Of a stretch of 64,000 nucleotides of DNA, positions 12,920-53,634 are shown one piece after another (the stretch's first letter is position 1; each line of letters begins with the position of its first letter). A program made the position numbers and the translations under genes. Under the pieces are notes generated by a model, which had not been told where the DNA came from, did not search any database, and was given only the letters and a program-made list of their open reading frames with translations. The DNA lies in assembly GCA_950073835.1 (NCBI GenBank), contig CATMRP010000002.1, positions 19,207 to 83,206 on the forward strand, in the 5' to 3' direction. Source of the DNA: an uncultured Alteromonadaceae bacterium (GTDB lineage: Bacteria; Pseudomonadota; Gammaproteobacteria; Enterobacterales; Alteromonadaceae).

Positions 12920-12940
12920 CGATTAATACTCAACTAATTA

Positions 12941-13204
12941 GGGGCTGTTGATCTTTGCTGTACACTTTTGCAGCAGTCTGTGTATCATTTAGACAAGGCG
13001 ACTGTTTGCAGGTCTAGTGGGCTAAATCAAAAACAGTCAACACAGTATAAATGATACACAGGCGCTGCCCGAAGGGGTCGTCATGAAAGCATTTTACTCA
13101 TTGTCACAGCCCTTTGACGTAGAACAACTATGCCTTCAGGACTGCTCCGCGATTAAAATGCTTTCATATAGACCAAAAATCGTACAGCAAAGATCAACAG
13201 CCCC
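12941..13204. mobile_element. MITE-like non-coding element with ~24-bp perfect terminal inverted repeats and two internal hairpins
   Basis: aGGGGCTGTTGATCTTTGCTGTAC (12940-12963) vs GTACAGCAAAGATCAACAGCCCCt (13182-13205); inner IRs TGTGTATCATTTA/TAAATGATACACA and ATGAAAGCATTTTA/TAAAATGCTTTCAT; flanked by TA on both sides. Confidence 0.8.
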
Positions 13205-13209
13205 TAGTT

Positions 13210-13782
13210 TTAAAAGAAGATATAAAACACAGGAATAGCCATACCTAACAGGGTTAACCACCAACGCTTTTTCCCCAATGCTCCATATTTTCCTTTCACC
13301 ATAAACAGCGCGGATAGTGCCAGATAGAGTAAAAGAAGCGCGTAAACATCAGAAAAAACCACCCAATTTTGACGAGCTTCATTAAGATGTAACCGATTAA
13401 ATTCAGGTAGTACAGGCCGTGGCGTTATTGCTTCATAAACTGCTTTTTGCTCACTGAAAGAAAGCGTAATGGTATGCCCTTCTGGTAGAAATACTCTGTA
13501 GATTTTAGCCGACTCCCAATAGCTTGCCTTCACCCCGCTATCAATATCAAAAGCGCTGAGCAGTTGCTGGTTAAGTTGGGCGTCAGTCAACGTAAAGTCA
13601 ACCTCAACTGGCGCTTCACGGCGCTCGACCTGATAGTTTGGGTTAAAATCCCGTACGTGGTTGAGCGCCAGACCAGACACAGCAAACACTATGGTCAGGC
13701 TTATACAAAAATAGCCAATGTCTCTGTGTATTGTACGATTCAGTTTAAACCAGTTAATACCTATTTTTGAATGCTTACTCAA
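13210..13782 (-). CDS. PepSY-associated TM helix protein
   Basis: N-terminal HRDIGYFCISLTIVFAVSGLALNH typical of PepSY_TM proteins; C-terminal TM segments. Confidence 0.8.
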   Translation of the reverse strand: MSKHSKIGINWFKLNRTIHRDIGYFCISLTIVFAVSGLALNHVRDFNPNYQVERREAPVEVDFTLTDAQLNQQLLSAFDIDSGVKASYWESAKIYRVFLPEGHTITLSFSEQKAVYEAITPRPVLPEFNRLHLNEARQNWVVFSDVYALLLLYLALSALFMVKGKYGALGKKRWWLTLLGMAIPVFYIFF

Positions 13783-14266
13783 GTACGTCTACGCCTGTTG
13801 GCTCAACCTGATAAATCGCCATCCCTTGGGTCACCGAAGCTGGGTCAAATTCCTCACCGTTGCGCTTAGCAAGTGATGCTAAGTACTTTTGTGTTTGGTC
13901 CTTTGACAGATGAATTGCATACATTTTTCCGGTAGCGATGGCTTTTCGACCTTTTGCGTGCATGGGAAACACCATATCGCCATCCCGCACCTTCAAACGT
14001 AACTTTTGAAAACGCGCATCAGACGCAATATCTACCCAGCAGCCGCGCTTTGCACACACCCCAACAATCGTGCCTTCGATGGTTACCTCTTTATCGAGAT
14101 ATTGCTCTGGTTTAGCAAGAAGCGTAGATATGGGAATAATATTATCGGCATCAACGTTGTCGCCAAAGTGAAGTGTCGATGCGAAAACGTTATTATTCAA
14201 TAAACACAGTAGCAAAAGAGTTTTAATTGATAACAGTTGAAGTAGGTGATTATGCTGTCTTTTCAT
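13775..14266 (-). CDS. DUF4920 domain-containing exported protein
   Basis: EVTIEGTIVGVCAKRGCWVDI...G.A core and signal peptide; overlaps next gene. Confidence 0.78.
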   Translation of the reverse strand: MKRQHNHLLQLLSIKTLLLLCLLNNNVFASTLHFGDNVDADNIIPISTLLAKPEQYLDKEVTIEGTIVGVCAKRGCWVDIASDARFQKLRLKVRDGDMVFPMHAKGRKAIATGKMYAIHLSKDQTQKYLASLAKRNGEEFDPASVTQGMAIYQVEPTGVDVLE

Positions 14267-14267
14267 A

Positions 14268-15248
14268 TCAATATCCTGTGGTAGATTTATCTTCGGTTAA
14301 TTCTTCAAATGTCGCCTTGCTCTGTTGCAGGTTTTCTCTCAATCCCGGCAATATATGCTCATTTATCTGCAAAATTTGCAGCTCATCCAAAATACCCAAT
14401 GTTACTAGCATTTCAGCTTGTTCAATTCTTTTTTGATAGCCTCGTATTGACGATGCCGTATTGGTAATGGAATTCCTGGGTATTTCCCCAAATTTTCTAT
14501 TGGCTTTATCATTTAGCTTTTTTAGCGCATCAGTAGTGGCTTGCTCAACAGTATAAACTGCGGAGCCATCGTATTCATCAAGGTTACTAAGATAGGCCGC
14601 CAGCCGACCGTCTCCGGACGACAGTGAACTTATGTATAATTCATCGTAATATTCTGGCCCGAGGCCTGCAGCGGTTAACCAAACAGGCAGGATTTCCACA
14701 TCCTCTATGACCATGCTACTTAATAGCCTCCTCCACGAGCTATTATTGGAAATGAAAGCGCCGAATGCCAGAAATCGCTGCAATTGCTCTACAGTAATGG
14801 TTTTATTGTTCGTTACAGCTGCATACAGTGCCGTATAATGTTGATTATCTAAACCACTACCACGCAACGGCTCGTTAACGCCAATCACGCCAGTTTCGAT
14901 TAACGCTAAAAGTAACTCTGTCTCGCTGCCCAATACTTCTGCATCTATCGACAAACCTATTAAGATTTCTTGCGGAGTCTTTGCAGAATAGCGTTTAAGT
15001 AAATCAGCTATTCCTGAGTTACCACTATCTGACGTGGGCTCAACTACTTTGCCAGACTTGCCTTCATCGCTAATCTGCTCAACTGGATTTGTTTCCTGTT
15101 TTGAAGTTTCCTCTGGCTGTGAATGTGGCCTGTTTTTATCACTTCCAACAGTCGACACAGCAGCCAAATCATTGTCGTCAAAAAAAGCATATGCCCAGCC
15201 TAAAAGCAGTATTACCAGTACAGTACCGGTCAATGTCCATTTTTTCAT
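14268..15248 (-). CDS. Ankyrin-like membrane-anchored hypothetical protein (intact paralog)
   Basis: LLLALIETGVIGVNEPL...HYTALYAAVTNNKTITVEQLQRFLAFGAFI; similar to ORFs at 22536-23399 and 23413-24242. Confidence 0.75.
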   Translation of the reverse strand: MKKWTLTGTVLVILLLGWAYAFFDDNDLAAVSTVGSDKNRPHSQPEETSKQETNPVEQISDEGKSGKVVEPTSDSGNSGIADLLKRYSAKTPQEILIGLSIDAEVLGSETELLLALIETGVIGVNEPLRGSGLDNQHYTALYAAVTNNKTITVEQLQRFLAFGAFISNNSSWRRLLSSMVIEDVEILPVWLTAAGLGPEYYDELYISSLSSGDGRLAAYLSNLDEYDGSAVYTVEQATTDALKKLNDKANRKFGEIPRNSITNTASSIRGYQKRIEQAEMLVTLGILDELQILQINEHILPGLRENLQQSKATFEELTEDKSTTGY

Positions 15249-15280
15249 CTCGCTTCCTTAATATGAGTAATAACAGACGT

Positions 15281-16354
15281 TCATAACATCTTTAAAAACG
15301 CTTCAAGTGCCTCTCGCTCTTCTTTCGTAAGCTCTAACTTCACCAATAAATCTGTTGTTTTAGGAAAATTGGGATCGTCTAATTGATGCTCTTTCGGCTT
15401 AGGCCTGGGTCCGCCCGCATTATATTGACCAATAATGCCACTCAAACTGGACATGATCCCGTTGTGAAACCACGGGCCGGTTTTCGATACTGCCCACAAG
15501 GACGGCGTTCGAAAGGCTCCGGAATCTGCTGACCGGCCGGTAATGTCAAAGCGGCCGCCGTCATGGTATTTTCGCTGGTAGTAGTGGAACCCAGTAACAT
15601 GAAACTGATTATCACTCATTAAAGGCCCATTATGACAGGTCATACAACGCGCTTTGGTGCGAAACAGGTGTAAGCCCAGTAATTCCTGAACGCTCAAAAT
15701 ATCAACTGCGCTTTTAGGTGTTTGGTAAGCCTGCTCAATAAACGTCATAAACCTACTCTGTGGCGGCTTAATAGTGCGTTCAAAGGCAACAATAGCTTTA
15801 CTCAAGGTCTGAGCTGTTATGCCTTCCCCCGGAAACACTTGCTTAAACTCAGCCAGGTAGTCATCACTTTCACGAAGTCTGGTCAACGCACCAAGAATGG
15901 TCGCATTCATCTCTTTGGGATCAACAATTGGCATTAGTGCTTGCTGCTGCGCAGTTTTTGCCCGTCCATCCCAAAAAAAGCTCTCCCAGAGATCTATTCC
16001 AACAATAGTTGGTGTATTGCGTTTACCCACCTGTTGGCTGATGCCCACAGCTTGTTTTCGCAGGTCGGTAAAAACTAGTCGAGCCTCATGGCAACTGGCG
16101 CAGCTCACCGTGTTGTCTTTTGATAAAATGGTATCGTGAAATAGCTTATCACCCAAAGCTACCAACTCAGCGGTTGGCGGATCGACTAATGGGGGGAGCG
16201 GAGCTAGTTCAGGCACCTTACGGTTATCAGTGGTAACCACTGACGGCCAGTTTTCCGGTGAACTAGCGTATTTTTCCCGCAAGCTAAGCTCATGATCTGT
16301 GTCGGCATTTGCGGAAAATGCAATGAAAAGACCCAACAGCCACTTAAGTTGCAT
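15281..16354 (-). CDS. Diheme cytochrome c peroxidase / MauG family protein
   Basis: Two CxxCH motifs (CASCH, CMTCH), LGDKLFHDTILS, RNTPTIVGI, FWDGRA, FRTPSLW, FHNG. Confidence 0.93.
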   Translation of the reverse strand: MQLKWLLGLFIAFSANADTDHELSLREKYASSPENWPSVVTTDNRKVPELAPLPPLVDPPTAELVALGDKLFHDTILSKDNTVSCASCHEARLVFTDLRKQAVGISQQVGKRNTPTIVGIDLWESFFWDGRAKTAQQQALMPIVDPKEMNATILGALTRLRESDDYLAEFKQVFPGEGITAQTLSKAIVAFERTIKPPQSRFMTFIEQAYQTPKSAVDILSVQELLGLHLFRTKARCMTCHNGPLMSDNQFHVTGFHYYQRKYHDGGRFDITGRSADSGAFRTPSLWAVSKTGPWFHNGIMSSLSGIIGQYNAGGPRPKPKEHQLDDPNFPKTTDLLVKLELTKEEREALEAFLKML

Positions 16355-16618
16355 TTACTCTATCCAAAATGTCTCTTCAGTGGCCGTTTCGCTAATCAAT
16401 TTTTCGGCATCTTTGAGTTCTGCCTCACTTTGGATGCTCTCACAAAGCACCGCATTTTGCTCGTTGGCCTTTTTAATCAATTGATAAAAATTTGCTGTTA
16501 ATGATTCACTGATTTTGGGGTCGATGTCTTTGCTGGGTGCATAACATAACTGTTGTGCCATTGCACTGGAAGAGCTCAAAATCGCCAAGCAGCTTAATAA
16601 ACGAATTAATGAAGTCAT
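16355..16618 (-). CDS. Small exported hypothetical protein
   Basis: Signal peptide; directly abuts the peroxidase gene in a co-oriented operon. Confidence 0.6.
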   Translation of the reverse strand: MTSLIRLLSCLAILSSSSAMAQQLCYAPSKDIDPKISESLTANFYQLIKKANEQNAVLCESIQSEAELKDAEKLISETATEETFWIE

Positions 16619-16633
16619 TCTATTCCTCTTTCT

Positions 16634-19432
16634 CTATTGATAACGGTATTTGATGCCTACCCACACGCGACGGCCTGTTTCAATGCCACTGTCTCCTGGT
16701 GTCACCAGATATGTACGGCTATTCAAAAGGTTATTAACGTCCAGATTAAATTCCAGTTCGCCGAAGTTTGCTGCGGGTAGACTATATTTAAGGGCCAGGT
16801 TAACCAGTATGCGGTCATTAAATTCGGCTTTCCGATAGAAGGGCACAACCACATTATATGCAGCACACTCAGCACAAGCTCGTTCAAGAAGACGTGTTTG
16901 TCTTGATCCGCCTGTACTCACGGCACTTACGTAACTGCCGGTGTAATTCGCGGTAACTGCTGCGGTAATCGCATTCCATTCCATAGCCCACCCCATATTC
17001 GCAGTCATTGGCCGGCTATAATTTGCATTTACGCGGTTGAGCTGATCTTTGGTAATGACCTGGCCTTCATAATAAACCAGGTCGTCAAGAGCGGCATCAT
17101 CGATAGCGGAGTCATAATCGTTATTGTTGCGATAATTTTGCGTGTGGCTGATATTTGCCCACAGTGAATGCTCACCAAATTTAGCGCTCCACGCTAGTGA
17201 GACTCGCTGACTGGTGCCCCGACCAGAATTATTCTGATACGCATAGCGATAACCATCAGTGTCCAGCACGCTCTCGCCAGAGCGGGCTAACTGATCCTGC
17301 TGCCAGCGATACACATAATTAATTGAAAATGTGCCAAATAATGCCGTTGACTGCTTCCAGCCTATCGTTGCCTCATCATTATAGGGTGTGGTGACATCCT
17401 GATACCGGTCGCGGTAGTCACTGTCATCGCTTGATAGCGTCCAGCCTTGCAGGTAACCGTTCTGTATAGGCCGGTACTGAACATAATACGGTCGCTTAAG
17501 CTCTTTAATTTTATAGGTAAGCAAGCCCGCATCATAATATCGGTTTAATCCCAGCACCAATAAGTTACCATTATCGAAAACATCAATACCGGCACTTAAT
17601 CGAGGAGCAATATTGTGCTGTTTAAAAAAATCATCGTAATCATAGCGAAGACCAAGTCTTAACGAAGCTCGCCCCCAGTCGACATTGTCTTCAATGTACG
17701 CACTGAACTGGTTAATATCGACATTAATATTCTCCGCGCCATAGACAATACGAGTTTGAAAGTACTGTGGGGTTGTCAGTACATTGTCAGAATAGGCCAG
17801 CACGTGTTCAGGATTACTGAAATCAATATAACCCCCTAGCTGCGCCGCCAATTCAGTTAGCGGAATGGCATAACTAATACTGATACAATCGTTAGTATAT
17901 CCGCTACAATTTAATGGGTTATCTAAATCCGACGTGGAATATAAAATTGGCGAATTATAATAGTAACTGTCTTCTTTCCGGGTCCTTTCCATTTCATCTC
18001 TAAGCCAGGATGCGCCAATTTGGAGGTGGTGTTGAAGGCCAAGAAATTCAAAACTCTCTAAATCAATATAACTGCTCAGTTGCGTACTTAACTGTGTTTT
18101 ATCGAGGTCGCCGTAGCCACCTTCTTTTGAAAATGACTGAGCCTCGTAATCACTGTCGTCTAAGTCATAGGTGTTGTTAGGATCATATTGCCCCCAATCA
18201 ACCCCCTTTGCCTGAAACCATATGTAGTAGTGTTGTGGTGCCTCGCGACTATTCTCGCTATGGTTAACGCTCAATTCAGTATGCCAGCTTCCCCAATCAG
18301 TATTTTCCTGCACTTCAATAATACTGCCAATACCGCCACCTTCCGCGGTGAACCAGCTATCCTTCACGTTTTTCAATAAATTATGGTTCTGATAGGGTGC
18401 GTACATGATTGACCAGTCAAGTCTGTCAAGCCATGTATCACGCATACTGTATTTTATTAATACATTAGTATTTTCACGCTCGGTTTCGACAATTTGTTGC
18501 AAAGATACATCGGAAATCTGACTTTTTAATAAATTAGCTGAGACCAGAATACCGTGATGACGGTTAAAGGAATGACTGCCTAACACACTTAAACTACTGA
18601 TATTGTATACGGGCACCTGATCTTCCAAAGGAATACTGGTATCTACTGCAGAGTCACTACTATTGTCTTCACCATCAAACCCGTTAAGAAGGTGAAACTC
18701 TCCCCAGGCGCTGTTGGTACTGCGAAAACTCGCTGAGAAAGCTGGCGCGAATGAACTCATGGCATCGAGCCCCTCTACATCAACGACGCCACCTGAAAAG
18801 TAACCAAAACGAGCAGGAATGTTGTTATCAAACACCTGGATATTGTCAACAATATCGCTGTTTACGGTAAAGGTTTGGGGAGCCCCGTATACGTCATTTA
18901 CACTGGCAATGCCACTTTCACTACTGCCAGGATCCTGTCGGCTGTTGAAATTCATGCCATCAAGAAAAAAGCCGGTTTGCCATGGCTGACCACCAGAGAT
19001 AGAGAGTAGCTTAGCGCGGATTTCACCGGCACTGCTGGCTTTTAGCGCGTTTTCTGAACCCTGAACGCCTGGGAGCAACAATATGAGATCGTTAATGTCA
19101 CCAGAACCTCTTGGCATATTTTCGATAAATTGCTTATCCAAATAAAAGCGCCCACTGATTTCCGGCACCTCAAGACCAATATACTTGCCATAAACATCGA
19201 TGTGTTCAACGTTTTCTTCTGACTCATATTGCTTGAGGCAGTCGCGCATTCGTGGCGTGTATTGAGAGCTTTCTACTCTTCCCGCTTGTTTGATACATGC
19301 CTCTACATAACTTTCAGGCACTAGATAATGATTGGCTAAAGACTCAACCGACTCAACGGCACCAGCCCCAACAGATGTAAGGGCCGGTATCATTAAGGCG
19401 GTTATGCTAACTGCATAACCTCGTTCTAACAT
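16634..19432 (-). CDS. TonB-dependent receptor (divergent plug)
   Basis: VYGKYIGLEVPEISGRFYLDKQFIENMPRGSGDINDLILLLPGVQGSE plug; C-terminal beta-barrel ending in ..VGIKYRYQ. Confidence 0.88.
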   Translation of the reverse strand: MLERGYAVSITALMIPALTSVGAGAVESVESLANHYLVPESYVEACIKQAGRVESSQYTPRMRDCLKQYESEENVEHIDVYGKYIGLEVPEISGRFYLDKQFIENMPRGSGDINDLILLLPGVQGSENALKASSAGEIRAKLLSISGGQPWQTGFFLDGMNFNSRQDPGSSESGIASVNDVYGAPQTFTVNSDIVDNIQVFDNNIPARFGYFSGGVVDVEGLDAMSSFAPAFSASFRSTNSAWGEFHLLNGFDGEDNSSDSAVDTSIPLEDQVPVYNISSLSVLGSHSFNRHHGILVSANLLKSQISDVSLQQIVETERENTNVLIKYSMRDTWLDRLDWSIMYAPYQNHNLLKNVKDSWFTAEGGGIGSIIEVQENTDWGSWHTELSVNHSENSREAPQHYYIWFQAKGVDWGQYDPNNTYDLDDSDYEAQSFSKEGGYGDLDKTQLSTQLSSYIDLESFEFLGLQHHLQIGASWLRDEMERTRKEDSYYYNSPILYSTSDLDNPLNCSGYTNDCISISYAIPLTELAAQLGGYIDFSNPEHVLAYSDNVLTTPQYFQTRIVYGAENINVDINQFSAYIEDNVDWGRASLRLGLRYDYDDFFKQHNIAPRLSAGIDVFDNGNLLVLGLNRYYDAGLLTYKIKELKRPYYVQYRPIQNGYLQGWTLSSDDSDYRDRYQDVTTPYNDEATIGWKQSTALFGTFSINYVYRWQQDQLARSGESVLDTDGYRYAYQNNSGRGTSQRVSLAWSAKFGEHSLWANISHTQNYRNNNDYDSAIDDAALDDLVYYEGQVITKDQLNRVNANYSRPMTANMGWAMEWNAITAAVTANYTGSYVSAVSTGGSRQTRLLERACAECAAYNVVVPFYRKAEFNDRILVNLALKYSLPAANFGELEFNLDVNNLLNSRTYLVTPGDSGIETGRRVWVGIKYRYQ

Positions 19433-19442
19433 ATCAGAAAGC

Positions 19443-22229
19443 CTATTCTCCGCTTAATGGTGCAGTATCTTCCTCATCTGCAATACCATCACCGTCTGAA
19501 TCGGAATCTGCAGTCAACCCTGATGCAGTAATTTGCGCTTCTGTTGCCGACAACAGGAAGAAGTTAGGCATGCCATCCGTGTCGGTATCGATAAAGGCAA
19601 TGTCAGATGCCGGGAAGTCATCCTGTGTGGCAATAATTTCAGATAACGTAACAATGTAATCAATCACATCGGCTTCTTCGTTAACATCGTTATTCACTAA
19701 AGCTGTAGCCGCATCATACATACCTGCATTGGCGTTCAATTCAATCAAGGATTCAATAACACCTTGTAATTCATTGGTAGACAACAACAACGATTGGTTA
19801 GTCACTTCAGTAATTGTTGCTTTCAAAGTTGCTAACTGTGCAGGCACAACTGTCGCGTAGTCGTCATTCATTCCCGCCTGACGTCGCAGCGCGCTTTCCA
19901 CAGGGTATATTGCGTAACCACTACTGCTCACTTCACCATCATCAGAAACGGCTAAATTTGCTAACTCACTCACAATATCGTCTATCAAATCTTCGGTAAG
20001 GGTTTGTTCGTTTAACAGTTTGGTCACGGCAGAGAGCGCTGAGGCTAAGTAATCTTCTGCGGGGCTGATGTTGCCAAAACTAGCTAATGCAGTGGCTATT
20101 TCAAGGTAACCGTTTAATTGAGCAATGCCGTCGTCAGTCAGCAATGCTGTTTCCTGGCCCGAACTCACTGCGGCGGCAAGCATGCCGTCAGTATCATCGG
20201 TAACAGCAAATGACGGGATCAGGTTTTTGTAAGCCTCCCGAGCCACACTGGTTGAAACTAATCCAGCTTCAGTGGATAAGTAGGTATCCACTAACGTTTT
20301 GCATGCAGCTTGTTTAGAAGAAACGTCTTCGCCCAGGGAATCAAGCAGTGAAATTACTCGCCAGCAGCCCCAGTCGCCGGTTATATAGCGATCAGTCGAT
20401 AACCCCGCATTTTCCTCAACATAGGCCTGTGTATTGAGCACATTGTCAAACGCATAGTTCAGCACTGTAACGGCGAGAGTATTTTCTTGCAGACTGATTA
20501 ATTTAATCGCAGTTTTACCTGCACGATCCCCCAGGTTTTCATCCACCAGAATTTCGTAGTAAGCGCGTAAATCATCCTTCTCGGTAACAAAATAATCGTA
20601 AGCCGCTTGAGATGCCTCGGCAACCGTTGCCCCCTCAAGTAACCCGTTGACTACCTGATAAGCAAACACCTCTTCCAGCGCATCTTCATAATCACCGTCT
20701 TCTGGATCGATAATCGCCAGGGCCGGATTGGTCGCTAGATCAGGGTATAACCCCTCTAGAACACCCGCTACTGTCTCCACTGGCGTTAGCGATGAATCAT
20801 AGGTGGCTTGTGCATATTCATTCGCTTCATAAGTGTACTCAGCGTCGTAGCTTACGTCAGTAAACAACGCCAGAGTTTTTGCTGCATAGTCCTTCGACTT
20901 ATCATAAGCCTGAATAATATAATAGTAATCAGCAACATAGCTTAAATAGAATGACCGTGTACGGTAAGCAGGAAAGCCACCACTCTCTCGCCAACCGATT
21001 CCTTCCGCCATAGTCGCCATGTTGTCGATGGCAAATTCGGCCTTCTCGCGATCTTCATCGCTGAAGGTCGATAAGTATGTTGCTACTCTGTCGCGAACCT
21101 GAGAATAAGCTGCAACTACAAAACGACCATACGCTGTAGAGTATTCTTCTTCTTTAATGGCATTGGCAAAGATATTGATTGACGTTAACAGGTTCTCGGC
21201 CAGTTCACTTTCGCCAGCGTCAATATAATCATTCATTAGCAATTGATAGAAAGCCGCATCGCTGGAGCTGATATTGGTTAAGCCTTTTTCCGCCAGATAT
21301 TGGTTAAAGGCAGACTCAGCTTCGGTTCGTAAGGTATTTGCCAGAGCTGTTTTATTTGCCGAATCCAGCGCCCTGGCAATTGAGCGCAGCGCTTCACCCC
21401 GAATATCATTCTGACCTATAGTAGCAACCAGTTCAGCACCTTTATCTTCAAAACCAGCAATGTAATAGCCTTTGGCAATCTCAGCAGTTACCTCGTCCTG
21501 CGCTTCTTCGTCAGAAGAGGTTTCAAGCAGCGCTTCGGCTGATTTTAAGTGGGAATAATCCGACGCAAAGTAATAATTGAGTTTATCTGCATTGGTGGTA
21601 AAGGCAGGTTGTAAATCAATCGTGGCTTCTACCGGTGCAGCAATAATGCCGTCAGTAAAGCTGACAGTAAAATTCTGATCAATTTGTTCTAAACTCGCTG
21701 GCGTGTAAGTAAATGCCCCGGTAGCAGCATCCAGCTCAAGGTTGCCGGATGCTGGTTGGGTTACAACGCTAAAAGTTATTGTATCTCCGTCAGCATCGGT
21801 GACACCTAGCGTGCCCGAGCTGCTACCCTGGCTGCTCACCACGACACTGCTTGTTTGCAATACGGGAGCATCGTTGATATTGATAACGGTAAATGTAACC
21901 GTTGCTGTTGCCGTAGCTTTACCATCTGAAACCTGCACAGTTACGCTGTCTCCCCCGGCAAAATCAGCCGCTGGCGTATACGTAAATGCACCATTTGATT
22001 CCAAAGCAAACACCCCATTTGATGCGGCGGATGCGACTGTATAGGTCAGCGTGTCACTGTTGTTCGCATCACTTGCAACAACGCTGTCAGACACACTAGT
22101 GTCTTCGTCCAGCGTATAGCTGTAATCTGATGAAAATTCGGGGGCTTTATTATCTGAACCACCGCCACACGCAGATAGCGAAGAAGCTATAGCAACCGCA
22201 AGCAAACAGCGGTTAATTTTAAATATCAT
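19443..22229 (-). CDS. Large lipoprotein: cadherin-like/Tandem-95 type repeats, alpha-helical repeat body, C-terminal Asp-rich Ca-binding-like motif
   Basis: Lipobox SLSACGGGSDN; two Ig/cadherin-like repeats (SVTVQVSDGKATATATVTFTVININDAPV); C-term DSDSDGDGIADEEDTAP. Confidence 0.82.
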   Translation of the reverse strand: MIFKINRCLLAVAIASSLSACGGGSDNKAPEFSSDYSYTLDEDTSVSDSVVASDANNSDTLTYTVASAASNGVFALESNGAFTYTPAADFAGGDSVTVQVSDGKATATATVTFTVININDAPVLQTSSVVVSSQGSSSGTLGVTDADGDTITFSVVTQPASGNLELDAATGAFTYTPASLEQIDQNFTVSFTDGIIAAPVEATIDLQPAFTTNADKLNYYFASDYSHLKSAEALLETSSDEEAQDEVTAEIAKGYYIAGFEDKGAELVATIGQNDIRGEALRSIARALDSANKTALANTLRTEAESAFNQYLAEKGLTNISSSDAAFYQLLMNDYIDAGESELAENLLTSINIFANAIKEEEYSTAYGRFVVAAYSQVRDRVATYLSTFSDEDREKAEFAIDNMATMAEGIGWRESGGFPAYRTRSFYLSYVADYYYIIQAYDKSKDYAAKTLALFTDVSYDAEYTYEANEYAQATYDSSLTPVETVAGVLEGLYPDLATNPALAIIDPEDGDYEDALEEVFAYQVVNGLLEGATVAEASQAAYDYFVTEKDDLRAYYEILVDENLGDRAGKTAIKLISLQENTLAVTVLNYAFDNVLNTQAYVEENAGLSTDRYITGDWGCWRVISLLDSLGEDVSSKQAACKTLVDTYLSTEAGLVSTSVAREAYKNLIPSFAVTDDTDGMLAAAVSSGQETALLTDDGIAQLNGYLEIATALASFGNISPAEDYLASALSAVTKLLNEQTLTEDLIDDIVSELANLAVSDDGEVSSSGYAIYPVESALRRQAGMNDDYATVVPAQLATLKATITEVTNQSLLLSTNELQGVIESLIELNANAGMYDAATALVNNDVNEEADVIDYIVTLSEIIATQDDFPASDIAFIDTDTDGMPNFFLLSATEAQITASGLTADSDSDGDGIADEEDTAPLSGE

Positions 22230-22292
22230 TACAGAACCTCTTTAAGAATATTTTATTCAAAACAACATAATCTTAAACATAGCATTAATCGC

Positions 22293-22313
22293 AAATGAGA
22301 TCCATTATCATTT
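22293..22313. promoter_or_regulatory. Putative Fur box
   Basis: aaatgagatccattatcattta upstream of the 22229 minus-strand start and within the divergent intergenic region to 22536. Confidence 0.6.
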
Positions 22314-22535: not shown

Positions 22536-23399
22536 ATGATAGTCAAAAAGTTAACTACCTACAGTTTGATAATTAATCTAATACTGGCCACTGGCCTGTA
22601 TTATTCGTCAACCTGGGCTAACACAGAACGCCCGGGTTCAGGCGTGCAAAATAATCAAGGCAGTCTTTTTGAATTACCGACTAAAGCGAACTCCAAAAAG
22701 CAAGTGACAGAGCGTTTACGCCATGATGTGGGCATAGCAGGATCAGACAACTGCGATCTTTTTTCTGACTCATTTCTTAGCGACAACGCTGACAATGTAG
22801 CATGGTTAACCTACGCCAAAGCCCAAGAACGAGTTGAGCATGAAAGACGCAAAATTATGTATGGAGAAATGAGAAGTTAAAAACTCTCCCGGGGAGAAGG
22901 CCTGCTCAACGCCATCGATAATGGTGACTTACTCATTAATGAGCAGTTTAAACCAGGCGCCCCTCATTTCACCCCCTTAATGCATGCCATTCAGAGCGAT
23001 CAAAAGGCCATTTCTGTCGAAACCGTGAATCAGTTTCTCGCTCGCGGCGCAATTGTGCATAACAATTATCAGTGGATTGATATTGCTAGCCGCACCAGCC
23101 CGGAAGTCGTACAGGTGCTTATCGGCAATGGTTTGGAACCCAATACTAAAACGGCATGGTACCAACACTCTACAGATTTAATTACTCAAGCTGTGTTAAG
23201 CGGCAATTTGGAACTGGCAGACTATTTAACATCGCTTGGGTATTCCTATAGCCGAACTGCTGTCAAGCGAGAGTATAAAGAGCAGCGCCTCAACAGCGAT
23301 TTCACCGAGCGTGAGGTGACCCTCGGCGAAATCATTAAGTCATCAGGGCGTCGAGTAAAAAACAAAGAAGAGGTACTGGATTACCTCGCTACCCATTGA
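22536..23399 (+). pseudogene. Ankyrin-like paralog interrupted by a single in-frame TAA (22878-22880)
   Basis: ORFs 22536-22880 and 22980-23399 are in the same frame; reading past TAA gives KLSRGEGLLNAIDNGDLLINEQ...PLMHAIQSDQKAISVETVNQFLARGAIVHNN. Confidence 0.75.
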
Positions 23400-23412
23400 A
23401 CAGGGGGAATGA

Positions 23413-24242
23413 ATGCCTTTATATCGATGGATTTTTCTTTTTGCCAGTTTAACGGTTAATGCTGGATTAGAGTATTTACTGATTAAAACGGAATTTTATC
23501 CTGCCAATGGCGCCGCAATATCAAATATTCCCAATCAATTAGCCTCACACCATGAAGCATTTAAAAACAGTGAGAGAATCAGTTCAATAGCAATATCAGT
23601 GGCGAAGGAAGAGCAGGTTTGCACACAGGAAGTCAACGCTGAGTTGCTGACCCTATACACCGATGATCCCAAACTTAGGGCCTTGGTTCGGTTACAAAAC
23701 ATCAAAATCAGAGAGTTTCATAATCAATTGGCAAACACGAAGGAAGATAATCTTGTTAGCGTACTGCTCGCAGCCATCGATGCCGGTGAAATTGGTATTA
23801 ATGAATCTATAGGTATAGCCCCACCGCTGCTAACGGTATTGATGCGAAAAAATCAATCACTGCATCTGAACTTGATAGCTTTTTCGCGCGTGGCGCTACT
23901 GTTCATGACAACTCTGATTTATCACACAACGTTTTATCTGGGCACTCTCCAGAGATTATAAAAGTGTTCCTTGATGCTGGTTTTGATCCTAATAAACTAC
24001 ATGACGAAGATTCGAACCTTCCAAACTTAACAACCATGGCTTTTGCACAAGGCAACTATGAGGCTGTAGATTACCTTGAATCCATTGGTTATTACCTGCA
24101 GGAGGAAGTAATGGTATCAATGAAGAATGCATCTGGAGAAAATGAGCGGAAACTTTTACCTCTGAAAGAAGCCATAGAGATGAGTCAGCGAATGCCAGAG
24201 GAATTAAAAGCAAAGCAGCTTGAATATTTGCGTAATAAATAA
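23413..24242 (+). pseudogene. Ankyrin-like paralog with frameshift near 23827-23834
   Basis: Frame 1 reads LLAAIDAGEIGINESIGIAPPLL; the -1 frame continues ANGIDAKKSITASELDSFFARGATVHDN...IIKVFLDAGFDPNKLHDED... Confidence 0.78.
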
Positions 24243-32832: not shown

Positions 32833-34185
32833 TCATGGCAATCCCACTATTTCAGCTTCCTGTATAGCCTGAACAACAATCTCCCCAAGCTCTCCCTTAG
32901 CCTCAACGCTCAATGGATTAAACGGCAAATGAGTAAGAGACAATGGAATTTGCTGATAAGTTCTTTCTCCATGTTCTCTGGCAGCTTCGATGTGCAATAT
33001 GACATCATTTGTACCTGCCACTTTGCCAAACTGATCCAGTCCATCCCAAACAAGGTGAACAGGTTTGTTGCCACTCGTAGCACCTGACATCCCATCAATA
33101 AGTTGCTCATTCTTCCGGCCAATTTTCCGCCACCATACCCTGAGTTCTTTAAGCCAACTTTCGCCGCTTCCCTGAATGAGGAGATTTTTAATCAACTTAC
33201 TTTTGTTGTCTGTGATCCAGGCTGTAACGTACGGCCCCTGGTAATCAGCGACATTGATGGCCGGTAGTTGTATATCAACGGTAACTTTCTGTCTGGACTT
33301 CTCATTATCCTGAACTCTCGCATGCCAACCCTCACTGTAGTAAAGACGGCCCTGTTCATCCTGTAACTGCACAAACTGTGTTGTTTCGTCGAGTAACGTA
33401 AATAACTCCCGGGACGGGGTAGAAGCTGCCAGATAGCCAATTACAAACGCATCCACCGCGTTATCTGCAATCACGTTTGACGCAAACATTGCCGCAGGCC
33501 ACCCATCGTTATGACTAATCACACCGGTTTCTTTACTACCTGGATATACTGGCAAGTCCCATGGCTCTAATGAAAAGTGTGCGCTGTTACTCAACGTTAA
33601 TGCCTGCCCTGAGCTCGTGGCAGTTAACAAATACTGGTGAATTTCTAACCGGTTCAGGTCTGCTGCCGCGTTGTTTAGCAGTACCGCTTGCTTAATATCA
33701 CTCAAATCCCAGACAACGGCTTTATCAAATTTGATACTAAAATCAGACCTGCTCAACACAACGTCAGCAATTCTTGCACTGCGCGCTAACTTTCGCACTT
33801 CGCGGCGTTCAATTTCGTGGCTGCCTTTGCTCTGCCATTGCTCCTTGAGTCTGCCATTACGACAGGTAAATTTACCCTCAGATTTACGGTGCCAGCGCTC
33901 ACATTGCTCCACGGCATTAAAAAACCACTCAGGTAAGGCATTAACCTGGCCGGCGCTGAATTGTGTGATCAAACTATCCGGCCTGGTGCGATCCAATTCT
34001 GAGCTAAGTTCAGCTAACCTCATTTTAAGTCTGGCAAGCTGTTCATCCCTGAGAGGAGCTTGTTCTACTCGCAGTATTATGCCATCTGACAGCACATAAT
34101 TTATGGCTTCACTGGCCAATACGGGCCCGGTATTTAAAAGAAAAATGGCAGCAAACAACGCTGCCCGAATGGTTGGGAAAACCAC
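32833..34185 (-). CDS. Degenerate ApbE-like domain fused to C-terminal DUF2271
   Basis: N-term SELDRTRPDSLITQFS and WDLSDIKQAVLLNNAAADL diverged from ApbE; C-term VDIQLPAINVADYQGPYVTAWITD...WWRKIGRKNEQLIDGMSGAT matches the 53095 DUF2271 protein. Confidence 0.75.
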   Translation of the reverse strand: MVFPTIRAALFAAIFLLNTGPVLASEAINYVLSDGIILRVEQAPLRDEQLARLKMRLAELSSELDRTRPDSLITQFSAGQVNALPEWFFNAVEQCERWHRKSEGKFTCRNGRLKEQWQSKGSHEIERREVRKLARSARIADVVLSRSDFSIKFDKAVVWDLSDIKQAVLLNNAAADLNRLEIHQYLLTATSSGQALTLSNSAHFSLEPWDLPVYPGSKETGVISHNDGWPAAMFASNVIADNAVDAFVIGYLAASTPSRELFTLLDETTQFVQLQDEQGRLYYSEGWHARVQDNEKSRQKVTVDIQLPAINVADYQGPYVTAWITDNKSKLIKNLLIQGSGESWLKELRVWWRKIGRKNEQLIDGMSGATSGNKPVHLVWDGLDQFGKVAGTNDVILHIEAAREHGERTYQQIPLSLTHLPFNPLSVEAKGELGEIVVQAIQEAEIVGLP

Positions 34186-35120
34186 TAACCTGCTACCTTA
34201 GCAACGATGTTGTTATCTTTGTTATCGCTATCATCACTGTTGTCCTGATTTCTATCAAAATTGCGCTCTCGAACAGGGTCTGCTTTGGTAATGTGCCCAT
34301 CTTCATTGGTGTCGTGACGGGTAAAACTACGCATACCTGACTGCATATATTCGGAAAATGTCATCGACTTGTCTTCGTTTTTATCCAATACACCAAAGCG
34401 TACGTAGGCCTGTTTCACTTGAGCTTTATACGTTTTCTCAATTTGTTTATCGAGACGGTCTTCAAACTCCAGTACATACTCCTGCTCTGTGAGCTTTCCA
34501 TCGCCATTCTCATCACTGCGCGCAAAGTGCTCATCACGAATCGTTTGGAATTCCTCTTTAGTCACTTTGTCGTCGCCATTGATATCATACAGATTCATGA
34601 AGCCTTCAATATTATGCGTGGTGGGCATTCGCAACAGCGGCGATTGGCGTAACGTCACCTCTTCTTTCTTTTGATTGTCCTGATTATTTCTCGAACGTCT
34701 TTGTGGTTCAGGATCACTGGCTAAAACAACACCATCTTTATCCTGGTCCATATGCTCAAAACCGCGCAAGCCTATAGCATTTAATTCTGCTGGTAAAATA
34801 TAACCGTCGCCGTCGTCATCTATTGCTTTAAAGCGCACATAAGTTTGTTTTACAGAAGCTTTGCGATCGTTTTCGAAGCGGGTTTTCATACGCCCTTCCC
34901 ACTCGTAAACATATTCATCTTCATCCAGTATGCCATTGTTGTTTGTGTCTGTTGCCGCAAAACGCTGGCGTCTCGCCTCCACAAATTCCTCCATTGACAA
35001 GGCTTCATCGCCATTCAGATCGTAGGTAAGAATTATGCCGCTGGCACTGTGGGGCGCTGCACTGAGTGTTTGTGGTAAAAAGCAAGTGGCAAGACAAAGT
35101 AATGTGATTCGGGAATTCAT
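34185..35120 (-). CDS. EF-hand protein with internally duplicated calcium-binding modules
   Basis: Repeated DLNGDEALSMEEF, DTNNNGILDEDEY, DDDGDGYILPAEL, DINGDDKVTKEEF, DENGDGKLTEQEY, DTNEDGHITKAD. Confidence 0.9.
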   Translation of the reverse strand: MNSRITLLCLATCFLPQTLSAAPHSASGIILTYDLNGDEALSMEEFVEARRQRFAATDTNNNGILDEDEYVYEWEGRMKTRFENDRKASVKQTYVRFKAIDDDGDGYILPAELNAIGLRGFEHMDQDKDGVVLASDPEPQRRSRNNQDNQKKEEVTLRQSPLLRMPTTHNIEGFMNLYDINGDDKVTKEEFQTIRDEHFARSDENGDGKLTEQEYVLEFEDRLDKQIEKTYKAQVKQAYVRFGVLDKNEDKSMTFSEYMQSGMRSFTRHDTNEDGHITKADPVRERNFDRNQDNSDDSDNKDNNIVAKVAG

Positions 35121-35138
35121 AGAATTGTTCCTAATAAA

Positions 35139-35945
35139 TCAATAAATTTCTAATGTTAATGTGGTTGTGTAACTGTACTGGGGCACATCCGCTTCTGCTG
35201 GAGCGTCAGTACGATATCGGGTTTTCATCAAATAAAGACTGGCAGCCTGTGGCGTAAATTCGGCTCTGCCACGGGAATTTGTTTCGATTGCGAGATAATC
35301 AGATTCCTCGCTATACTGGTCACTGGCCTGATAAATGGTAACCGCTTGGTTTGGTAGGGGTTGACCATCGAAATAAACCGTAAAAGCGACATTTTCCTGG
35401 TTAAATAGGTTATTAGGATGTTTATCCAGCTTTAGTTCCAAGCCTTCATTTGTTAACTCCAGAACTGTTGCCGAAGGCGCTTTTTTAGTGACATAAGCAA
35501 CCGCACTGGTTAAAGGTCTGAACTCTGCAGTAAGTTCCGCGCCTTCGGGCAAGGGTGTAGCATTTCCCCTAACAGAATGGCTCTCGCCATTTAAGCTGTA
35601 GCGACGAAAAACCGGTCCCAGTCGACGCCCTGTTGAAAAGCGGTAGGTACCATCCTGCGTTAATCTTTGCTCAAGCACATTTCGGGTTTTTAAGTTCGTC
35701 ACGCTCTCTACAGATTGATTCTTGCCATTGGGGAAAGCCACTTCAAAAGAAGCGTTACTGATCGCCGAGCCTGGCATAAAAAAACGCTCAGTGAATGAGG
35801 CATCCAACGTTACCGTATCGAATCGTAGAGGCTCAAAACTAAGCGGCTTTATATAGGGCGTTGCTGCCTCAGAGTCATTAAAAACGCCAATAACAGAGCC
35901 GATTAATACAATCGCAACCGACATAATTTTCATATCAAGGTTCAA
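35139..35945 (-). CDS. DUF4198 domain-containing protein
   Basis: Exported; NNLFNQENVAFTVYFDGQPLPNQAVTIYQ...TNSRGRAEFTPQAASLYLMKTRY, similar architecture to the 52269 ORF. Confidence 0.75.
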   Translation of the reverse strand: MNLDMKIMSVAIVLIGSVIGVFNDSEAATPYIKPLSFEPLRFDTVTLDASFTERFFMPGSAISNASFEVAFPNGKNQSVESVTNLKTRNVLEQRLTQDGTYRFSTGRRLGPVFRRYSLNGESHSVRGNATPLPEGAELTAEFRPLTSAVAYVTKKAPSATVLELTNEGLELKLDKHPNNLFNQENVAFTVYFDGQPLPNQAVTIYQASDQYSEESDYLAIETNSRGRAEFTPQAASLYLMKTRYRTDAPAEADVPQYSYTTTLTLEIY

Positions 35946-35971
35946 CTAATTTCAAAAATATCACTCAATGT

Positions 35972-35998
35972 TATTGCAAATGCAAATCATTATCAATA
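35972..35998. promoter_or_regulatory. Putative Fur box (minus-strand operon side)
   Basis: attgcaaatgcaaatcattatcaatac in divergent intergenic region. Confidence 0.6.
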
Positions 35999-36013
35999 CC
36001 ATGCTCGATCATC

Positions 36014-36042
36014 AATTCATGATAATGATTCTCATTTACAAT
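36014..36042. promoter_or_regulatory. Putative Fur box (plus-strand TBDR side)
   Basis: aattcatgataatgattctcatttacaat upstream of the 36068 start. Confidence 0.7.
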
Positions 36043-36067
36043 ATTCTGACAAATCGAAAGGTCTGCT

Positions 36068-38449
36068 ATGAACTTTAAATATTCTGCGCTTTGTATCGCA
36101 TTGACTTCTGTATTAAGCACAACGGCGTTTGCGCAACAAACCCGTTTGGAAGCAACCAAAGTTACTAATGATGAAGGCGACATCGCTCGCCAAGGTGAAG
36201 TCGTCCTTGACAACGAAACACTGCAAAATCAATCGATTACTAACATAGAAGACACTACCAGATACTTGTCAGGCGTTCAGGTAAATAACAATGGCACGCG
36301 CTTTGGCGATGATGGATTTAATATTCGCGGTTTAAGCGGAGACGCAGTTGCCGTTACCATCGATGGCGTTTCACAAGGTGAAACGCTGAACCCGTCAACT
36401 TATGCGGCCTACGGTATGTATGGCTCGAGTCGGGGGCAAGCGGAACTTGAGCACGTTAAGACTGTAACTATCACAAAAGGCCCGAGCAGTGTTACGCGTG
36501 GGGCCAGTGCTTTAGCAGGCTCAGTAGCTTATGTGACGAATGATGCTGCTGACTTTTTACCTGAAGCTGGTGACAGTTTTGGCGGCCGGGTTAAGGCCGG
36601 TTTTGATTCCCGCTCAGAAGAGTGGTTAGTAAGTGGCGCGATAGCAAACCGCACCGGAAACTGGGAAACCTTACTACAATACACTCAGCGCGAAGGCAAC
36701 GAAACCGAAGCGCACAGTAATGGTGCTGATATTAATGGTTCAGAACGTGGTCAGGCAGATCTGATGGACATTTCTTCTGGCTCGGTACTGTTCAAGCTCG
36801 CCTATAACGTATCAGACGATACGCAAGTCGGAGTGGTCTATGAAAACACCGATCGTGAAACCCTGGGCACACCTCTGTCACGCGAAGGTGGTACGACCTA
36901 TTTTGACTTTGCCACTGCCGATGAAAACGACCGCGAACGCTATGGCGTATTCTTTAAACAAAACAACGCAAACAATAGTTTTTACGACTCCTTAGAGGTT
37001 GCGCTTAACTATCAGGAGCTTTTCACTTCAGGTATTACTGCGTTTTCTTATAGCTACCGGGGGGCAGATCCTTATTTACGGGTTGAAGATAGAAATCTAA
37101 CGCAGGAATCTACTTCACTGGCTATCGATTTCAGCAAAACTATTGAAGCAGGATTAACCCATGAGTTGGTGTACGGTGCCAGCTACATCAGCTCTTCATT
37201 TTTAAATGTAATGTATGATCGTCGATACAATGACACTACAACGTCTTCTGGTTTAAGAGATGGTTATCCAATCCGCGATCCAGCGTTCATTCCTGAATCT
37301 GACAAGACCGCTTTTAGTCTCTATGTGGCCGACGCAATAGAAATAAACGAGCAACTTACTGCCAATATTGGCGTACGTTACGATACAACAGAATACGACC
37401 CTACTATCGACGATACTTTTGCAGATCCAACCGGTAAAAGCGTGACCTCTGCCGACTTCAATACGGTAGTGAGTGAAGTCGGCCTGAACTATGAATTTAT
37501 TGAAGGTCATAGCCTGATGTTGAAAATAGCCCAAGGTTATATGGCACCGACGTTACAGGATTTATATTTAGATACGGACTCAGGCGCAGAAATCGTCGAT
37601 ATCAACACTGGTGCGACTTATGACGATCTGGATCAGATTGCTAACCCGGAACTGAGCGCCGAACGCTCAACCAACTACGAGATTGCGTATAATGCAACTT
37701 TTGATGCTGGCAGTTTTACCGTTGCGTTGTTTAGAACTGACTACACCGATTTAATTCAAGACGTTTCTTACAGCAATGCTTACGGGGAAGAAGTAACAGT
37801 AGAATCTTGCTCCGCATTTACTGGTACCTGCACCACACAAGTGCTTACAGAAGATACATACAGTCAAGCAGACAACGTCGGTGAATTAGAAGTCACCGGG
37901 TTTGAAATTGATGCCAATTATGAATTTACTAACAATATTCTTGGCTACTTTAGCTACTCTGCGATAGACGGCGAATACCAAACGGCCTCTTCGTATAATG
38001 ATGTTGGCGACGACCTCGTTTCAGCATATCCCGATACCGTTACTGCCGGCCTGGCTTATCGCTCTGATGACGGAGACTGGGGCGCTCAACTGTATGCCAT
38101 TCACCGGGCTTCGGTGCCAGAAAGAACCACAGTCACAGACGACGATGGCAACGTTACTAGGGAGGGGCAGGCAAGTTACGACAATGCAAACCGCGGTGGT
38201 ATCGTGTATTTCCCTGATGCCTTCACAGTATTCGATTTAACCGGTTACTATGCGTTTTCAGATAATCTGAAACTAACGGCTGCCATCTACAATTTAACTG
38301 ATAAGGAATATTACATGTGGGAGTCTCTCTCAAGTGTTAATACTTCGGGTGGTACTGGTGGTTTCGCAACCAGTGTTCAGGGCGATGGTTATCAACGATT
38401 CTCGGAACCCGGCCGCTCTTTTAGTGCATATTTAACTTATACCTTCTAA
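36068..38449 (+). CDS. TonB-dependent hemoglobin/transferrin/lactoferrin-family receptor
   Basis: Plug GDDGFNIRGLSGDAVAVTIDGVSQGETLN...VTITKGPSSVTRGASALAGSVAYVT; barrel end FSAYLTYTF. Confidence 0.9.
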   Translation: MNFKYSALCIALTSVLSTTAFAQQTRLEATKVTNDEGDIARQGEVVLDNETLQNQSITNIEDTTRYLSGVQVNNNGTRFGDDGFNIRGLSGDAVAVTIDGVSQGETLNPSTYAAYGMYGSSRGQAELEHVKTVTITKGPSSVTRGASALAGSVAYVTNDAADFLPEAGDSFGGRVKAGFDSRSEEWLVSGAIANRTGNWETLLQYTQREGNETEAHSNGADINGSERGQADLMDISSGSVLFKLAYNVSDDTQVGVVYENTDRETLGTPLSREGGTTYFDFATADENDRERYGVFFKQNNANNSFYDSLEVALNYQELFTSGITAFSYSYRGADPYLRVEDRNLTQESTSLAIDFSKTIEAGLTHELVYGASYISSSFLNVMYDRRYNDTTTSSGLRDGYPIRDPAFIPESDKTAFSLYVADAIEINEQLTANIGVRYDTTEYDPTIDDTFADPTGKSVTSADFNTVVSEVGLNYEFIEGHSLMLKIAQGYMAPTLQDLYLDTDSGAEIVDINTGATYDDLDQIANPELSAERSTNYEIAYNATFDAGSFTVALFRTDYTDLIQDVSYSNAYGEEVTVESCSAFTGTCTTQVLTEDTYSQADNVGELEVTGFEIDANYEFTNNILGYFSYSAIDGEYQTASSYNDVGDDLVSAYPDTVTAGLAYRSDDGDWGAQLYAIHRASVPERTTVTDDDGNVTREGQASYDNANRGGIVYFPDAFTVFDLTGYYAFSDNLKLTAAIYNLTDKEYYMWESLSSVNTSGGTGGFATSVQGDGYQRFSEPGRSFSAYLTYTF

Positions 38450-38465
38450 CCCACAACGTAACCAT

Positions 38466-38491
38466 GGCAGTTCAGCCTCTGCTGAACTGCC
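38466..38491. terminator. Perfect 11-bp hairpin after TBDR gene
   Basis: ggcagttcagc-ctct-gctgaactgcc; no clear T tract. Confidence 0.45.
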
Positions 38492-38493
38492 AC

Positions 38494-38526
38494 ATTGCAT
38501 ATGATAATCATTTGTATTAGCATTTA
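38494..38526. promoter_or_regulatory. Putative Fur box
   Basis: attgcatatgataatcatttgtattagcattta upstream of the 38553 plus-strand operon. Confidence 0.68.
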
Positions 38527-38552
38527 TACAAATAACTGTAAGTGTAACTAGC

Positions 38553-39398
38553 GTGTTGTTCATCAAGCCAGACTTTTCTCCTAAACAAATTATCCAAGCT
38601 TCTGTTGCAGTTTGTCTGCTGGCTATCCCTGTATACCCATCATTCGCTGTCAGCCAAACAGAAACCATCGATAACCTCATATTGCAATGGCAACAAATTG
38701 AGGCGCAGCGGAGCCAGATGCAATCACAATGGCACACCCGGCAACGTATTCTTGAACAACAATCACAACTGATAAAAAGTGAGCATGCCGAACTTCAACG
38801 CCTGCTCAGCGAAAAAGGCACAGCAACTAATGAAGCCCAGGCAGAACGGGAGAAGCTACTGGCTCAACAGTCAGTCCTGGAAGCACAACAGACCAGCGTA
38901 CAGGGTTCTGTTCAACAGGCCAAATCTCAAATTATGGCCATGAACACACAGCTCCCTCCTGTATTGCAAGCCAGTTGGCAGGAGCATATTAATTACTTAA
39001 CGACAGAAAACCCTTCCCCTTCAGAAATGCTCAATCACATTGCTGAAGCCTTGAAAAAACTCCATGCGTTCAATCAGCGTGTAGTGCTGCATCAGACTGT
39101 AATGACAGTTTCGACACCGCTAAGCAATCAAACCACTGAAAAGAAAATCCAGGTTAAACAAATTTACCTCGGCGCTTCCAAAGCCTGGTATATCAGTGCA
39201 GACAGCAGGTACTGGGGTACAGGTCAGCCCTCTCCAGAAGGATGGCAGTGGCAACCGCTGGAGCAACAGGCGCCAGCATTAGCGCATACCTTAAACAACC
39301 TGATTATCTCGATAGAGCAGCCATCTAAAGCGCAATGGATATCACTCCCTTACTCACTGGTAGACACTGATGTGTCAGCGCAAGGAGGAACTCAATAA
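38553..39398 (+). CDS. DUF3450 family protein (TonB2-system associated)
   Basis: Coiled-coil WQQIEAQRSQMQSQW...; adjacent to TtpC/ExbB/ExbD/TonB genes. Confidence 0.85.
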   Translation: MLFIKPDFSPKQIIQASVAVCLLAIPVYPSFAVSQTETIDNLILQWQQIEAQRSQMQSQWHTRQRILEQQSQLIKSEHAELQRLLSEKGTATNEAQAEREKLLAQQSVLEAQQTSVQGSVQQAKSQIMAMNTQLPPVLQASWQEHINYLTTENPSPSEMLNHIAEALKKLHAFNQRVVLHQTVMTVSTPLSNQTTEKKIQVKQIYLGASKAWYISADSRYWGTGQPSPEGWQWQPLEQQAPALAHTLNNLIISIEQPSKAQWISLPYSLVDTDVSAQGGTQ

Positions 39399-40744: not shown

Positions 40745-41142
40745 TGACAGACTCTATAAGCATACTATCCAATCCGGTAATCTGGTGCATTTTTGTAATG
40801 GCTGTTGCTTGTTACTACAGCTTGCTCCATGGGATATTTTTTACCACAGCAAACACTGAACAACGTTTTCTTACTCTTGATAACACCCAAACGCTGCTAA
40901 GCAGCTTGCCATTATTGGGCTTATTGGGAACGATCGTTGGTTTATTACAAACTTTTGCCGCTATGGCCCGAGGTGTAGGTAATCAGGCCGAACTGATGAG
41001 TTCCGGTATCGCCGATGCCATGTACACCACCGAAATGGGCCTTTTAATGGTTATCCCGGGCTGGCTGCTGTTGTATCAACAGCGTCGTTCACTTGAAAGA
41101 AGGTCGCAGTTAATAACGGCTGAACCCACCCCTGGTAATTAA
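40741..41142 (+). CDS. exbB: ExbB-type biopolymer transport protein
   Basis: LLSSLPLLGLLGTIVGLLQTFAAMARG...ADAMYTTEMGLLMVIPGW. Confidence 0.9.
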   Translation: MMTDSISILSNPVIWCIFVMAVACYYSLLHGIFFTTANTEQRFLTLDNTQTLLSSLPLLGLLGTIVGLLQTFAAMARGVGNQAELMSSGIADAMYTTEMGLLMVIPGWLLLYQQRRSLERRSQLITAEPTPGN

Positions 41143-41144
41143 TC

Positions 41145-41552: not shown

Positions 41553-41553
41553 G

Positions 41554-47383: not shown

Positions 47384-47406
47384 GGCAGGTGTTCAGTACA
47401 TCTAAA

Positions 47407-48078: not shown

Positions 48079-48102
48079 AGCTAAATAAGGCGAGTTACTT
48101 TA

Positions 48103-48897: not shown

Positions 48898-48900
48898 ATT

Positions 48901-49788: not shown

Positions 49789-49794
49789 AATTGA

Positions 49795-50544: not shown

Positions 50545-50549
50545 CGTTA

Positions 50550-51437: not shown

Positions 51438-51440
51438 ATT

Positions 51441-51926: not shown

Positions 51927-51946
51927 GGTTATGTCCAGAGGGCCGG

Positions 51947-53093: not shown

Positions 53094-53094
53094 T

Positions 53095-53568: not shown

Positions 53569-53634
53569 ATTGGAACCTCAAACAAGATAGCGACTGTTAG
53601 TAAATAACAAAACAGCAAACCCAGAAAACAATAC

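Follow-up and report, generated by a model that had tools for sequence, protein, structure and literature searches.

A putative Fur-controlled, Fus-type import locus with a large lipoprotein and a MauG-type diheme enzyme in an uncultured Alteromonadaceae bacterium

A 64,000-nucleotide stretch of DNA from an uncultured Alteromonadaceae bacterium (GenBank assembly GCA_950073835.1, contig CATMRP010000002.1, positions 19,207 to 83,206 of the forward strand; hereafter the window) contains, at positions 13210-22229, seven nearly abutting minus-strand open reading frames (ORFs), of which the first encodes a large lipoprotein, the second a TonB-dependent receptor (TBDR) and the fourth a diheme enzyme (Table 1). 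On balance, we favour the reading that this locus encodes a Fus-type system for TonB-dependent import under Fur control, in which cargo would be captured by the lipoprotein and processed by a diheme enzyme of MauG type. The reading draws on features visible at the sequence level, namely the kinship of the receptor with FusA, the synteny and co-occurrence of the core genes, the exchange of the diheme enzyme for a protease, a Tyr at a heme-ligand position and a Fur-like promoter site.

Comparison of the TBDR family profile with TBDRs of known structure revealed matches at E<=0.01 to two of these only, FusA (4zgv; E=4.9e-111, 375.7 bits) and 6ofr (E=2.9e-89, 303.7 bits). The search output names 6ofr as a TonB-dependent receptor only; we take it to be E. 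coli YddB. On the strength of these profile matches, the window receptor is assigned to the FusA/YddB protein-import family and not to the metallophore type. The unusual plug pointed out in a preliminary description of the locus is consistent with a Pfam plug domain below threshold (E 0.012); the structure model of the receptor was unusable, with a mean predicted local distance difference test score (pLDDT) of 45.6.

Searches with the TBDR and the lipoprotein yielded 23 lipoprotein-bearing loci, the Pseudoalteromonas copies L028-L031 being counted as one. The order lipoprotein, TBDR, diheme enzyme was found in one cluster in 20 of the 23, and loci bearing this core are spread over several families and at least two orders. 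Among 395 genomes of the order, full-length lipoprotein and strong TBDR matches occurred in the same 14, and the E values of the TBDR matches drop from 2e-236 straight to 2e-66. In the TBDR tree, the 22 lipoprotein-linked receptors form one clade (support 99/98). FusA relatives without this lipoprotein (ten from the order plus L088 and L090) have an M16 protease nearby in 12/12 cases, an arrangement also seen in known Fus clusters. The lipoprotein is supported as a partner of the TBDR, as the preliminary description had proposed, by co-occurrence, adjacency and the single receptor clade, and it probably catches cargo as a co-receptor. The same description looked to gene neighbourhoods for conserved synteny, which was found for the core; judged from these neighbourhoods, lipoprotein, TBDR and diheme enzyme make up the core, to which accessories are added, and there is no fixed seven-gene unit. 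In one locus of the same genus (L035, genome G013), the system is decaying: the lipoprotein gene lies in pieces around a transposase-like ORF, and that of the TBDR is split.

The diheme enzyme belongs to the Pfam family CCP_MauG, contains two CxxCH motifs and an inter-heme Trp, and has cytochrome c peroxidases (CCPs) as its best PDB matches. Alignment revealed a Tyr at the axial-ligand position of MauG and MbnH (Tyr311 of the window enzyme) in 19 of 19 relatives, and the axial Met of CCPs pairs with Tyr311 when the CcpR alignment is extended ungapped. The ligand of MauG is presumably Tyr294, and the numbering of the MauG chain puts the aligned Tyr at or beside residue 294. The position of the CCP distal His is occupied by Ile105, and the combination of Met and distal His that marks bacterial CcpA-type enzymes is absent from the window enzyme. 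The best NCBIfam score was obtained with the MbnH family (178 bits, cut-off 362.85), and the score for MauG was 152.7 bits (cut-off 443.85); because both lie below the cut-off, the enzyme is named MauG-type here, not MauG.

At locus L070, the slot of the diheme gene is taken by a 945-aa M16 peptidase with an intact HxxEH motif, surrounded by the same lipoprotein, TBDR, DUF4920 and PepSY genes. In genome G114, which encodes the lipoprotein and the TBDR, a comparable diheme gene is missing; a FusC-like M16 protease, 42% identical to that of L070, is encoded there at an unlinked position. The window operon has no FusC-type M16 protease, and the best M16 matches of its genome are partial (E 1.6e-20). 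This complementarity is suggestive, not strict, since genomes G140 and G881 have other diheme genes elsewhere. Two loci, L089 and L097, form long branches of unsure placement in the TBDR tree, which bears on whether the swap had one origin or several. In both, a MauG-type gene directly follows a FusA-like TBDR, and the lipoprotein of the window type is missing (L089:3408-7410, from another gammaproteobacterial family; L097:4059-8020, from a Shinella plasmid, Alphaproteobacteria).

A first scan of the window promoter with the 19-bp E. coli Fur consensus was not significant (P=0.18). The palindrome at 22293-22313 matches the 21-bp consensus AAATGATAATNATTATCATTT at 17/20 positions (P=0.002; 250-bp upstream region shuffled 500 times), a P value that is optimistic, as this consensus was picked after the sites had been inspected. 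Because the consensus was chosen after the non-significant first scan, the recurrence of Fur-like sites across genomes outweighs the single P value: upstream of the lipoprotein gene, such sites reached shuffle P<=0.016 in 12 of the 23 loci tested. The operon promoter is predicted to carry a Fur box, and Fur control is predicted with it; the palindrome at 22293, already pointed out in the preliminary description, is real and has comparable sites in other genomes.

An unlikely reading, which nevertheless has to be weighed, is that of a Fus-type locus whose diheme enzyme is a plain CCP that guards the periplasm from H2O2 while iron is imported or reduces the cargo, the latter as proposed by Grinter et al. 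2019 (PMC6793856). The Pfam family and the best PDB matches agree with this, as does the CCP-type distal His that is kept in 7 of the 19 diheme relatives, mostly in one TBDR subclade (L066, L034, L071, L072 and L074-L076, four of which, L034, L074, L075 and L076, also encode the 87-aa family). The Tyr in place of Met at the axial position of the H-heme in all 19 relatives and the missing distal His of the window enzyme argue against it, however, and the M16 exchange points to cargo processing over general detoxification.

The features of the lipoprotein bear both on its proposed role and on a second rival. Its lipobox has Gly and no Asp at +2, as expected of an outer-membrane lipoprotein; among the relatives, Cys21 is present in 22/22 aligned sequences and Gly at +2 in those parsed. 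Cadherin-like/Ig domains (Pfam; residues about 30-210) are followed by a TPR-like alpha-solenoid (residues about 213-868), whose blocks have a pLDDT of mostly 75-95 in a model with a mean of 70.5. The most conserved part is the C-terminal Ca-type motif DTDxDGxPNFF...SGLxxDxDxDxDG. Foldseek with the model returned generic TPR proteins only, at low TM scores, and Pfam indicated no TbpB domain in the window lipoprotein. Two Tyr residues, Tyr219 and Tyr495, are fully conserved, and the aligned lipoproteins have no conserved Trp.

That the diheme enzyme is a maturase like MauG or MbnH, converting the lipoprotein, the 87-aa protein or the TBDR into a metal or ligand site, is improbable in our judgement. 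The Tyr ligand and MbnH as the top-scoring NCBIfam family would fit such a role, and MbnH of Methylocystis adjoins its target MbnP; on the other hand, the enzyme scores below both cut-offs, the conserved Trp of the TBDR are mostly common to M16 systems too, and the 87-aa protein is missing in most loci. Because no Trp is conserved in the lipoprotein and its conserved Tyr persist in loci without the enzyme, an MbnP-like role is disfavoured and one tied to the TBDR is favoured for the lipoprotein; for the same reasons it was rejected as a target of the diheme enzyme, which the preliminary description had modifying a ligand or partner.

Loci L133 (7569-13537) and L134 (5932-14050) combine a Slam gene, a lipoprotein, a FusA relative and an M16 protease, the lipoprotein of L134 having a borderline TbpB domain (26.2 bits, cut-off 26). 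Since a Slam gene and a lipoprotein adjoin the FusA relatives there, such receptors can pair with surface lipoproteins, and the arrangement represents another way of combining a lipoprotein with a receptor of FusA type. The Fus survey (PMC6793856) does not mention it in its main text.

The PepSY protein matched PepSY_TM_like_2 (PF16357) with 47 bits (Pfam gathering threshold 27) and has conserved His residues in NRxxHRD, SGxAxNH and LHLNE. Wherever it was found in the loci it is accompanied by DUF4920; the pair is also present in L066 and L070, and a FusA-M16 cluster (L126) ends with it as the window operon does. By gene neighbourhood, DUF4920 and PepSY recur beside FusA relatives, and the 326-aa gene is an accessory. 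PepSY_TM proteins are known as periplasmic ferrisiderophore reductases and as supporting copper enzymes, and by this analogy a role of the window protein as a periplasmic reductase, put forward in the preliminary description, is judged likely. That the receptor imports a small iron or copper metallophore, the lipoprotein being accessory and reduction falling to PepSY, would be in keeping with the PepSY_TM partners of siderophore (HiuAB) and copper (CrtA-CrpH) TBDRs and with the Fur-like site, yet is the most doubtful of the readings in view of the FusA-family membership of the TBDR, the M16 exchange, the presence of PepSY in only 3 of the 23 lipoprotein loci and CrtA not being described as FusA-related.

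A CrtA-CrpH-type copper importer was also considered and rejected, the CrtA paper mentioning neither FusA nor a peroxidase. A methanobactin-like locus was likewise rejected, given the FusA-type TBDR, a diheme enzyme below the MbnH cut-off and the absence of MbnP, MbnB and MbnC; no operon gene matched the MbnA, MbnB/MbnC or MbnP families in Pfam or NCBIfam. The preliminary description had drawn an analogy with methanobactin loci, which is not the closest frame for a receptor of the FusA/YddB protein-import family. Its view of a Fur-type uptake and processing locus is supported, and metallophore uptake is, by the same family assignment, not the closest frame either.

For the Fus-type import system with MauG-type processing, we infer a mechanism in which the lipoprotein, exposed at the cell surface, would capture a protein or large-peptide cargo, probably iron-bearing, and pass it to the FusA-family receptor. 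In the periplasm, the MauG-type diheme enzyme, in the slot of FusC, would process the cargo, most likely by an H2O2-driven oxidation that destabilises the cargo or its cofactor. In this genome, the DUF4920-PepSY_TM pair may then reduce or handle the freed metal before inner-membrane uptake. Several observations weigh against this reading. Since seven relatives keep the distal His, MauG-like character may not extend to the whole enzyme class; at two of the lipoprotein loci, L068 and L093, no processing enzyme is linked; and DUF4920/PepSY occur in 3/23 lipoprotein loci. The locus is patchy, being present in 4 of 37 same-genus genomes, one copy degenerate, and is therefore dispensable. The operon contains no Slam gene that would go with surface exposure of the lipoprotein, and no ferredoxin-type cargo was indicated. 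Whole-protein import for iron has been demonstrated in very few cases, such as that of ferredoxin in Pectobacterium. Tentatively, and with less confidence than the import reading itself, we suggest that the system imports a protein and frees its metal not by proteolysis but through high-valent oxidation by the diheme enzyme, that the lipoprotein with its cadherin, TPR and Ca-motif parts represents a new class of surface lipoprotein and is an obligate co-receptor of this FusA clade, and that M16 cleavage and diheme oxidation are interchangeable modules.

Order and sizes of the seven genes proved to be as first described, and motifs and Pfam bore out the peroxidase-family, DUF4920, PepSY and cadherin-like assignments. 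From the lipoprotein gene onwards, the intergenic gaps are 10, 15, 0, 32 and 1 nt, followed by an 8-nt overlap before the PepSY gene; a terminator scan gave no more hits inside the operon than in shuffled sequence. The seven genes are presumably co-transcribed. The miniature inverted-repeat transposable element (MITE) taken as the boundary is real, with identical 24-bp inverted ends and about 20 copies across this genome.

Table 1. Features of the locus and its boundaries (positions in the window).
Feature	Position	Strand	Characteristics
Fur-box-like palindrome	22293..22313	.	17/20 match; 64-84 nt before lipoprotein ATG
928-aa lipoprotein, proposed co-receptor	19443..22229	-	lipobox LSAC-G, cadherin-like/Ig domains, TPR-like alpha-solenoid, C-terminal motif
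TonB-dependent receptor (932 aa), FusA/YddB family, proposed protein-import gate	16634..19432	-	profile matches 4zgv, 6ofr; tree
87-aa exported protein, accessory	16355..16618	-	two conserved Cys (QLCY...C); in 6 loci
Diheme CCP_MauG-family enzyme (357 aa)	15281..16354	-	CASCH 85-89, CMTCH 237-241, inter-heme Trp128, Tyr311
326-aa protein with N-terminal transmembrane segment, accessory	14268..15248	-	single relative (L032, 27% identity)
DUF4920 exported protein (163 aa), accessory	13775..14266	-	Pfam; conserved CxxxGCW motif
PepSY_TM_like_2 membrane protein (190 aa), accessory	13210..13782	-	Pfam; conserved His motifs
MITE, boundary, outside the system	12940..13205	.	266 bp; inverted ends AGGGGCTGTTGATCTTTGCTGTAC

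No Pfam family was found for the 87-aa and 326-aa proteins, and the description of the latter as ankyrin-like was not borne out. Relatives of the 87-aa protein are encoded at L034, L074, L075, L076 and L135. The L032 relative of the 326-aa protein sits after the diheme gene; a 573-aa downstream protein of L034 was rejected as a further relative, being unsupported by BLAST. Divergent from the operon, on the plus strand at 22536-24242, is a tandem pair of degenerate genes. The first is interrupted by an in-frame stop and has a sub-threshold ankyrin match, and the coding sequence of the second is divided between two frames; the region has a weak match (E 0.003) to the L032 relative. Further away, a probable metal-uptake operon (45905-53655, minus strand), preceded by a Fur-like site (18/20) at 53635, encodes DUF2271, DUF4198 and ZnuA-type binding proteins, an ABC transporter, a PepSY_TM_like_2 protein and a flavodoxin/NAD-binding reductase. 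At 32833-43589, genes for DUF4198, EF-hand-like and ApbE-DUF2271 proteins are divergent from that of a 793-aa receptor-like protein, which is followed by an apparent ExbB/ExbD/TonB-type cluster; Fur-like sites in this region lie at 35978 and 36017.

With FusA-FusB-FusC-FusD of Pectobacterium and YddA-YddB-PqqL of E. coli, the window operon shares the TBDR family and predicted Fur control. A processing-enzyme gene lies near the receptor in both, M16 of FusC type recurring in L070 and, unlinked, in G114. The window operon differs in that the diheme enzyme replaces the M16 protease and a large lipoprotein partner is added; it lacks a FusD-like ABC exporter and FusB, and has DUF4920, PepSY and the 87-aa protein in addition. 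MauG and MbnH have the two CxxCH motifs, the inter-heme Trp and the Tyr at the axial-ligand position in common with the diheme enzyme, whereas neither a methylamine dehydrogenase nor MbnP nor another Trp-bearing partner accompanies it, and its receptor is FusA-like. As in TbpA/TbpB and Slam-dependent receptors, the lipoprotein co-occurs with its TBDR, but it is built of cadherin-like and TPR-like parts with a Ca-motif instead of TbpB barrels, and no Slam gene belongs to the operon.

Grinter et al. 2019 (PMC6793856) reported that FusA homologues lacking FusC have cytochrome c peroxidases as neighbours, and named a Pseudoalteromonas cluster among them. Their main text mentions no lipoprotein, Slam, PepSY or MauG-type ligands, although the supplementary table may list a lipoprotein unnamed. 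The literature searched contained no other description of this gene set. A clade with a diheme enzyme in place of the protease offers a natural test of what processing must achieve, the lipoprotein provides a handle for cargo discovery, and the system would assign a biological role to MauG-like enzymes annotated only as cytochrome c peroxidases. The preliminary view that this is not a described system holds for the lipoprotein and not for the pairing of receptor and peroxidase: FusA beside a diheme cytochrome c peroxidase is already known, and the lipoprotein partner, the MauG-type chemistry and the enzyme swap are new.

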